In this document: positions 6,535 to 13,149 of the stretch, piece after piece
Numbering within the stretch: position 1 is the stretch's first letter
Layout: every line of letters starts with the position of its first letter
Origin: a bacterium
Lineage (GTDB): Bacteria > AUK180
Direction of reading: 5' to 3'
DNA: 13,860 nt
Assembly: GCA_030622125.1 (NCBI GenBank)
Contig: JAUXGM010000048.1
Coordinates: 1 to 13,860, forward strand
Notes under the pieces: generated by a model
What the model saw: only the letters and a program-made list of their open reading frames with translations
Database searches by the model: none
What the model was told of the DNA's origin: nothing
Position numbers and translations under genes: made by a program

Positions 6535-6585
6535 CTATTAATTTGACATTTGAAGAAAAAGGTAATAAGAGAATAAGGGAATAAG

Positions 6586-6720
6586 TAAAACAATATTAAA
6601 TTCCATTCCAAACAAAGGAGGGACATACCTCATCAAACTGATTTTTTTTGTTGAGGTGTGTCCCGGATTCTTCCTTAGATAACGATATACCTCCCGAAAA
6701 CAATATAGACAAAGGAAATA
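6586..6720 (+). repeat. hairpin-plus-tail interspersed repeat, copy A
   Basis: This is a full copy of a family also present at 12589-12988. It has three parts. The left motif TAAAACAATATTAAA is at 6586-6600. A hairpin follows at 6620-6664: GGGACATACCTCA (6620-6632) pairs with TGAGGTGTGTCCC (6652-6664), and an inner CAAA/TTTG extension lies beyond a T-T mismatch. The conserved tail runs from 6665 to 6720 and contains TTCCTTAGATAACGATA, then CTCCCGAAAAC. No open reading frame fits it. GGAG stands at the foot of the hairpin, as in some REP elements, but no transposase is present in the window. The function is unknown, and the strand given is only by the orientation of the tail. Confidence 0.75.
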
Positions 6721-6728
6721 GAATTACT

Positions 6729-6776
6729 GTGTCCCGGACTCTTCCTTAGATAACGATAGACCACCCGAAAACGATA
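6729..6776 (+). repeat. hairpin repeat family, tail-only copy B
   Basis: The stretch begins GTGTCCCGGACTCTTCC and continues through TTAGATAACGATAGACCA and CCCGAAAACGATA. It matches the right arm and tail of the full copies but has no left arm. It follows copy A by 8 bases and ends 5 bases before the parS-like site. It looks like a deletion product or a partial duplication. Confidence 0.7.
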
Positions 6777-12559: not shown

Positions 12560-12588
12560 ATGGGGACACTTCAAAAGCAGGCAATAAG

Positions 12589-12747
12589 TAAAACAATATT
12601 AAACTCCGAAAAACCATAAAAGAGGGACATACCTCAACCTTTCCTGATGCGTTTACGCATCAGAATTTGGAACAGGTTGAGATGTGTCCCGGACTCTTCC
12701 TTAGATAACGATAGACCTCCCGAGAACAGTATAGCCAAGGGAAATAA
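12589..12747 (+). repeat. hairpin-plus-tail interspersed repeat, copy C
   Basis: This is a full copy with left motif TAAAACAATATTAAA at 12589-12603. In the outer stem GGGACATACCTCAACC (12624-12639) pairs with GGTTGAGATGTGTCCC (12675-12690), with one G-T wobble and one A-C mismatch in 16. The loop holds a second, perfect hairpin: CTGATGCG (12644-12651), TTTA, CGCATCAG (12656-12663). The conserved tail follows from 12691. It lies 30 bases after the fur stop codon. It might end transcription of that operon, but no T-run follows the stem. Confidence 0.75.
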
Positions 12748-12775: not shown

Positions 12776-12831
12776 AAAACAATATTAAATTCAGAAAACA
12801 AGCGGGACGTACCTTAACAAGAGGTTAGAGG
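12776..12831 (+). repeat. hairpin repeat family, rearranged half-copy D
   Basis: The left motif AAAACAATATTAAA (12776-12789) is followed at 12794-12831 by a 38-base block that begins GAAAACAAGCGGGACGTACC and matches 36 of 38 bases at 13015-13052. The right hairpin arm and the tail are missing and heptamers take their place. The block's GAAAAC resembles the end of the tail and its GGGAC the start of the hairpin, so it looks like a tail-to-head junction. Confidence 0.65.
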
Positions 12832-12848
12832 TTGGAGGTTAGAGGTTA
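12821..12848 (+). repeat. GAGGTTA heptamer, four tandem units
   Basis: GAGGTTA, GAGGTTG, GAGGTTA and GAGGTTA run without a gap. Only one base in 28 deviates. It is a short tandem repeat embedded in the repeat array and could vary in unit number between strains. Confidence 0.75.
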
Positions 12849-12851
12849 GTG

Positions 12852-12988
12852 TAAAACAATATTAAACTCCGTCCCCCATAAAAGAGGGACATTATCTCAA
12901 CTTTCTGATTTTTAAAGTTGAGATGTGTCCCGGATTCTTCATTAGATAACGATAGACTACCCGAAAACGATATAGTCAAAGGAAATAG
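12852..12988 (+). repeat. hairpin-plus-tail interspersed repeat, copy E
   Basis: The left motif TAAAACAATATTAAA is at 12852-12866. The hairpin at 12886-12931 has an outer GGGACA/TGTCCC pairing, a short internal asymmetry, and an 11-base perfect inner stem: ATCTCAACTTT (12894-12904) with AAAGTTGAGAT (12914-12924). The tail runs from 12932 to 12988. The loop CTGATTTTT is nearly the same as in copy A, although the stem bases differ. Confidence 0.75.
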
Positions 12989-13014
12989 ATAAATAGATTC
13001 AGAAGAAATACACC

Positions 13015-13052
13015 GAAAACAGGCGGGACATACCTTAACAAGAGGTTAGAGG
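13015..13052 (+). repeat. hairpin repeat family, rearranged half-copy F
   Basis: This 38-base block, GAAAACAGGCGGGACATACC onward, differs from half-copy D at two positions and also ends in GAGGTTA-type sequence. It marks the end of the repeat array. From 13081 to 13149 I see no gene or repeat. Confidence 0.65.
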
Positions 13053-13056
13053 CATG

Positions 13057-13079
13057 CCCAGCACCTTCTTGGTGCTGTG
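13057..13079. repeat. small GC-rich hairpin
   Basis: CAGCACC (13059-13065), a TTCTT loop and GGTGCTG (13071-13077) form a perfect 7-base stem. It is among the most GC-rich spots in the intergenic array. No run of T follows, so it is not a typical intrinsic terminator. Confidence 0.6.
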
Positions 13080-13149
13080 GTTATTCCATTATTCGATGTC
13101 AGGCACACAAGTGAGCCATGTACCTCCCTATTTCGCAAAAAACTGATAT

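Follow-up and report, generated by a model that had tools for sequence, protein, structure and literature searches.

A high-copy family of GGGAC-footed palindromic repeats in a bacterial genome, with a probable origin in the termini of a TIR-associated Y1 transposase element

What kind of element is the hairpin-bearing repeat that recurs in the spacers of this contig? Two options had been raised in an earlier note made from the letters of the window, i.e., the whole stretch of 13,860 nucleotides analysed here, which is one entire contig (C132) of a 2.08-Mb genome in 192 contigs: an element of the REP/BIME type, mobilised by a Y1 (RAYT-like) transposase, or a structured RNA. According to our analysis, the three copies described there, A (6586-6720), C (12589-12747), and E (12852-12988), do share a left motif, the GGGACA..TGTCCC foot, and a tail of about 55 bases with TTAGATAACGATA, and their inner stems agree with those quoted, CAAA/TTTG in A, CAACC/GGTTG in C, and CAACTTT/AAAGTTG in E. 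Table 1 reports their parts, together with three pieces which were absent from the earlier note, namely, a second tail copy and two left-arm-only half elements. The left module of the second of these half elements also precedes other hairpin types elsewhere in the genome. Similarity between copies stops just to the left of the left module.

Table 1. Repeat-related features located in the window
Feature	Position in the window	Strand	Description and basis
8-base tandem repeat (GGNAATAA)	6554-6585	+	Adjoins the left end of copy A
Copy A, left module (AAAACAATATTAAA..AAAGGA)	6587-6619	+	Conserved across the alignment of 38 full copies
Copy A, hairpin (GGGACATACCTCA..TGAGGTGTGTCCC)	6620-6664	+	Fold, alignment, and match to Y1 ends
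Copy A, tail with TTAGATAACGATA	6665-6720	+	Tail core found 140 times genome-wide, control 0
Second tail copy, in tandem	6729-6776	+	71 bases downstream of the first; lacks the left arm and starts with the right-arm remnant GTGTCCC
Copy C, full element	12590-12747	+	Hairpin at 12624-12690; additional inner hairpin CTGATGCGT..ACGCATCAG
Half element, left module and left arm GGGACGTACCTTAACAAG	12776-12821	+	Lacks the right arm and the tail; direct reading
7-base tandem repeat (AGAGGTT)	12820-12849	+	Adjoins the left end of copy E
Copy E, full element	12853-12988	+	Hairpin at 12886-12931; alignment, fold, and covariance model
Half element of a second type, GAAATACACCGAAAACAGGC and left arm GGGACATACCTTAACAAG	13005-13043	+	Direct reading

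Other short sequences recur around these features. Copy A has the motif AAAACAATAT both at its left end (6587) and close to where its tail stops (6697), while GGGGACACTTC, possibly another Y1-type end, lies about 30 to 50 bases upstream of two copies (window 12562-12572; locus L040, position 3036). The same spacers harbour further palindromic repeats, e.g., GCACCTTCTTGGTGC and GTCGTTCGTGAACGAC (window 13053-13085; loci L024, L034, and L063), which occur in genome G002, from another genus, too.

The family extends far beyond the window. A covariance model built from 38 full copies gave 139 genome-wide matches at an E value of ≤1, and the 26-base core motif of the tail, with up to 3 mismatches, was located at 140 sites in the genome against 0 for the reversed-pattern control. 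At least 94 hairpins have the foot GGGAC[A/G]..[T/C]GTCCC in common, and types sharing this foot differ in their tips (CCTCAAC..GTTGAGG, CGTTGC..GCATCG, CCTTCCCGTATC..GGGATAAACTCCGAAGG, and CCTCGGATGTTCAGG); a strand-symmetric pattern consisting of the foot only retrieves 76 hairpins in the source genome. The counts of 139 and 140 are lower bounds, since many copies are near contig ends. The conserved unit is about 135 bases long and reaches past the hairpin on both sides. The 84 clusters examined are scattered and without exception intergenic, four of them overlapping only short frames of 90 to 139 amino acids which are probably spurious, and the tails of the 25 multi-tail clusters are arranged head-to-tail, with mixed orientation in none. 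No match to the family was obtained in viral contigs and plasmids, nor were tail copies found in other sequence collections from which the source genome was excluded; GGGGACGG as a literature term returned nothing relevant.

Two local features accompany the copies. At C74:2430-2810 (L024), five tails follow one another head-to-tail with the same 71-base period as in window 6662-6776, and since each of them opens with a right-arm remnant, tandem tails would seem to have arisen by duplication following the loss of the left arm. In 21 of 67 left flanks, degenerate tandem repeats of 7 or 8 bases and of varying sequence adjoin the left end, compared with 2 of 112 flanks on the right and 6 of 500 stretches taken at random.

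The stem had been described as one whose paired bases change together, a claim which stands between subfamilies but only in part among full copies. Pair counts obtained by script and RNAalifold for the 38 full copies show no variation in the six outermost foot pairs. At the pair cited as C-G, C-A, and T-A in copies A, C, and E, respectively, 18 copies have C-G, 19 a broken C-A, and 1 T-A; at the next variable pair, 20 have A-T and 18 a broken T-T; and the inner three pairs switch en bloc (AAA/TTT in 26 and TTT/AAA in 11). Taken alone, these copies constitute weak evidence for selection on pairing, and copies A, C, and E do not establish selection on structure, because half of all copies have a broken pair at the cited place. 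Only the comparison of subfamilies suggests it: foot pair 6 is A-T in 68 of 94 hairpins, G-C in 24, and A-C in 2, two subfamilies each contain both A-T and G-C at this pair, and where the same subfamily occurs in G002, the pair is A-T. Mutational correction of hairpins could be an alternative source of this compensation between subfamilies.

When we searched for a Y1 transposase gene flanked by hairpin-like sequence, we were able to identify one on contig C172, with inverted repeats that match the hairpin arms. The source genome encodes four Y1 (HUH) transposases (Y1_Tnp), and both strands around their genes were scanned for terminal inverted repeats (TIRs). Three of the genes have inverted ends composed of GGGGACGGTGGT and element-specific sequence, while the fourth, C172:3630-4469, has the TIR TTAGGGACACACCTCGC..GCGAGGGGCGTCCCTAA and the flanks GGGACACACCTCGC..GCGAGGGGCGTCCC, which come close to the sequence of the hairpin arms. 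GGGAC opens most Y1 TIRs of the class. The C172 TIR is imperfect, its right end (GCGAGGGGCGTCCC) being degenerate, so that it may have ceased to be a substrate of the resident enzyme. The encoded protein features the HUH histidines H60/H62 and the tyrosine Y119, invariant in 19 Y1 proteins of the class, and matches Y1_Tnp above the Pfam cut-off; its DnaA-like C-terminal domain matches Bac_DnaA_C below the curated cut-off (E values of 2e-5 and 7.7e-6), and its match to the NCBIfam RAYT model is well below the cut-off of that model. For its predicted fold, the best match is E. coli TnpA-REP with REP hairpin (4er8; E = 1.9e-5), in agreement with the sequence search, and the DnaA DNA-binding domain 3pvp is among the fold matches (E = 0.057; 2.3 Å over 70 columns). 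Gene-less copies of Y1 elements do occur in the source genome, since we found miniature derivatives of the sibling elements, of 194 to 195 bp with the TIRs of the C140 Y1 gene and of 161 bp with those of the C141 Y1 gene. The miniature elements L141 to L145 (on C34, C40, C45, C50, and C91) measure 161 to 198 bp and have the ends GGGGACGGTGG; four of them match the C140 or C141 gene ends, and the one on C91, GGTTGATTTTGTTGATTTT, matches none of the four Y1 genes.

Across seven genomes of the class, an ortholog of the C172 protein exists only in G002 (66% identity), the other Y1 proteins reaching at most 48% over shorter stretches. The G002 gene occupies the same insertion site, between the same two flanking genes, and its ends, TTAGGGACACACCTCGC..GCGAGGTGTGTCCCTAA, are perfect. 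The right end of this element is identical to the right arm of copy A, GAGGTGTGTCCC, which, with 43 cases, is likewise the most frequent right arm in the repeats fetched from the source genome. In G001, G003, and G004, the two flanking genes abut without a Y1 gene between them, which represents the empty site of the Y1 element; the source species is represented by one genome, and none of the hairpin copies yielded an empty site. The hairpin pattern follows the gene, with 76 occurrences in the source genome, 5 in G002, and 0 in the five other class members (reversed controls, 0 throughout). In G002, the left module and the composite hairpins persist in part, and the tail was not seen at the five hairpin loci of that genome. 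A 26-base G002 match from the first DNA search (L063) comprises the left module and an 8-base array only, without a hairpin, and a 19-base match (L064) was not accepted as a family member since it has no repeat context and looks like chance. The source genome and G002 are probably sister lineages, and the shared distribution of hairpin and Y1 gene may therefore reflect a single historical event.

We favour the view that the family probably consists of non-autonomous palindromic DNA elements (miniature, REP-like) which stem from the ends of a TIR-associated Y1 element ("TIRYT") with a DnaA-like domain and were spread in trans, a view held with somewhat more confidence than doubt. Judging from sequence, it is most likely that the repeats hitch-hike as small mobile elements and do not represent a new RNA. 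In origin, the hairpin would correspond to two TIRs of a Y1 element joined without the gene. The likely enzyme is the product of C172:3630-4469, with its HUH fold and putative DnaA-like DNA-binding domain: where the hairpin becomes single-stranded, e.g., at a replication fork, the protein would recognise the GGGAC-footed arms, cut via its tyrosine, and join the hairpin elsewhere. Both the action of the C172 protein on the hairpins and the movement of the latter are what we infer from these matches. Of the two options in the earlier note, an element moved by a Y1 enzyme is thus the better supported, by the match of arms to Y1 ends and the shared distribution, although the GTAG tag and the inverted pairs of REP/BIME elements are missing. 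Against an origin from TIRs, past the common GGGAC the arm/TIR match is short (about 7 bases), and the extension of the conserved unit beyond the hairpin on both sides counts against a bare TIR-TIR hairpin, which does not predict the left module and the tail.

In a rival account, the repeats were spread and maintained by another process, be it gene conversion or the duplication and recombination of tandem repeats, with the likeness to the Y1 element reduced to common GGGAC ends. Tail arrays that keep an exact 71-base period and lack left arms, tandem repeats of 7 to 8 bases at left ends, and the fact that GGGAC starts most Y1 TIRs of the class all accord with it. Local duplication, however, would hardly reach about 80 scattered intergenic places, and the arm/TIR identity of 11 to 12 bases holds only for the Y1 lineage that is confined to the two hairpin-bearing genomes; we consider this account unlikely. 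Another non-transpositional process, quasipalindrome template switching, might keep palindromes perfect by mutational correction, in which case the compensation would stem from mutation and not from selection or transposase recognition. Tips that change in blocks (AAA/TTT versus TTT/AAA) are as expected from template switching, but the C-A and T-T mismatches that persist in half of the copies would make such correction inefficient, and dispersal is left unexplained, so that we deem it highly improbable.

The second option of the earlier note, a structured RNA or 3' untranslated-region element whose hairpin would serve transcript stability or processing and whose tail would serve protein binding or pairing, found nothing positive beyond the fold. 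Copy A folded as RNA gives a z score of -3.9 on the + strand, better than all 200 shuffles, and -1.8 on the - strand, which is in its favour, as are the conserved tail, the tails that never run in opposite directions within a cluster, and a 5'-side gene that is co-directional in 37 of 58 clusters. Copy E, treated as DNA, also surpasses all 200 of its shuffles (z = -3.5). The tail alone, instead, folds no better than shuffled sequence, the stem pair is broken in half of the copies, and 7 of the 31 clusters with both flanks known, copy A included, sit between divergent genes. An Rfam scan of the window gave no match up to an E value of 1, and no terminator-like site was detected around copy A. 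Orientation relative to genes was considered as evidence for an RNA role and set aside as not decisive, with 8 sense versus 3 antisense cases between codirectional genes. On this balance, an RNA role appears quite improbable, and the preferred reading remains that of mobile elements derived from Y1 ends.

Whether the DnaA-like domain of a Y1 protein reads such ends has been questioned: the 2018 survey doubted that it does so, given that the TIR motif is unlike a DnaA box (PMC6006769). Immediately inward of the GGGAC foot, 14 Y1 elements of the class carry sequence that recurs at a lag of 9 (match of 0.59 versus 0.32 when shuffled); only this lag stands out among lags 4 to 13, and the 9-mer differs per element (loci L009-L012, L067-L089, and L170, in 7 genomes). 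Our hypothesis is that this 9-base direct repeat beside the TIR motif represents a candidate site of the DnaA-like C-terminal domain. It is further conceivable, albeit doubtful, that TIR-type Y1 proteins with this domain use it to read the conserved GGGAC foot plus an element-specific pair of 9-base direct repeats, and that a palindrome replacing the pair would generate self-sufficient hairpins which can reach more than 100 copies and carry passenger modules. If so, REP-like families would arise directly from TIR elements.

As to known systems, the family resembles GTAG-REPs and their REPtrons and REPINs (RAYT) in being made of short intergenic high-copy palindromes with a single-copy Y1 gene that has the same flanking sequence, but differs in the missing GT[AG]G tag, the head-to-tail groups, and the long conserved tail. 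A GTAG-REP was rejected since no unpaired GTAG/GTGG is present at the 5' foot, the neighbours being AAAAGA or ARGC on the 5' side and GGAYTC or AAGAC on the 3' side; a CGTC-REP, since no unpaired CGTC stands at the ends and CGTC occurs only within the paired foot of G-C subfamilies; and a BIME or REPIN, since inverted unit pairing is lacking, with 0 of 25 multi-tail clusters of mixed orientation. In organisation, the layout is also comparable to that of the BOX elements of Streptococcus pneumoniae, which are modular and combine a hairpin with a middle or tail unit repeated in tandem; the link to a transposase sets the present family apart. Di Nocera et al. described in 2013 Y1 genes with flanking terminal inverted repeats of the motif GGGGWSAS (TIRYT), whose TIRs form moderately abundant repeat families (PMC3733652). 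As in those TIRYTs/TIRtrons, the same genome here encodes a Y1 protein with HUH and catalytic tyrosine, a DnaA-like C-terminal domain, and gene ends of the same sequence as the repeats. The sequence AGGGACAC, at the left end of C172 and both ends of G002, agrees with GGGGWSAS at 7 of 8 positions. There too, TIR sequences recur as repeat families of the same genome, some of them self-complementary (PMC3733652), whereas here a fused hairpin lies within a larger left module and 55-base tail, in many hairpin subfamilies and more than 100 copies. According to the 2018 survey, most TIRYTs fall in TnpA-Y1 subclass 2.1, whose C-terminal domains are DnaA-like or of another HTH kind, and no REP-like sequences were found near the genes of this subclass (PMC6006769). 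The C172 protein shares with this subclass the Y1 core, a C-terminal Bac_DnaA_C-like domain, and TIR flanks (PMC6006769) but differs in that a palindromic family matches the ends of its gene. A high-copy palindromic family is here linked to a TIR-type, DnaA-domain Y1, a group without REP-like repeats in that survey, and across two genera one can trace the hairpins as well as the gene at its one syntenic site, with the empty site in three further genomes. This offers a concrete system for testing how REP-like repeats originate from the ends of ordinary transposons, and which target the DnaA-like domain recognises.
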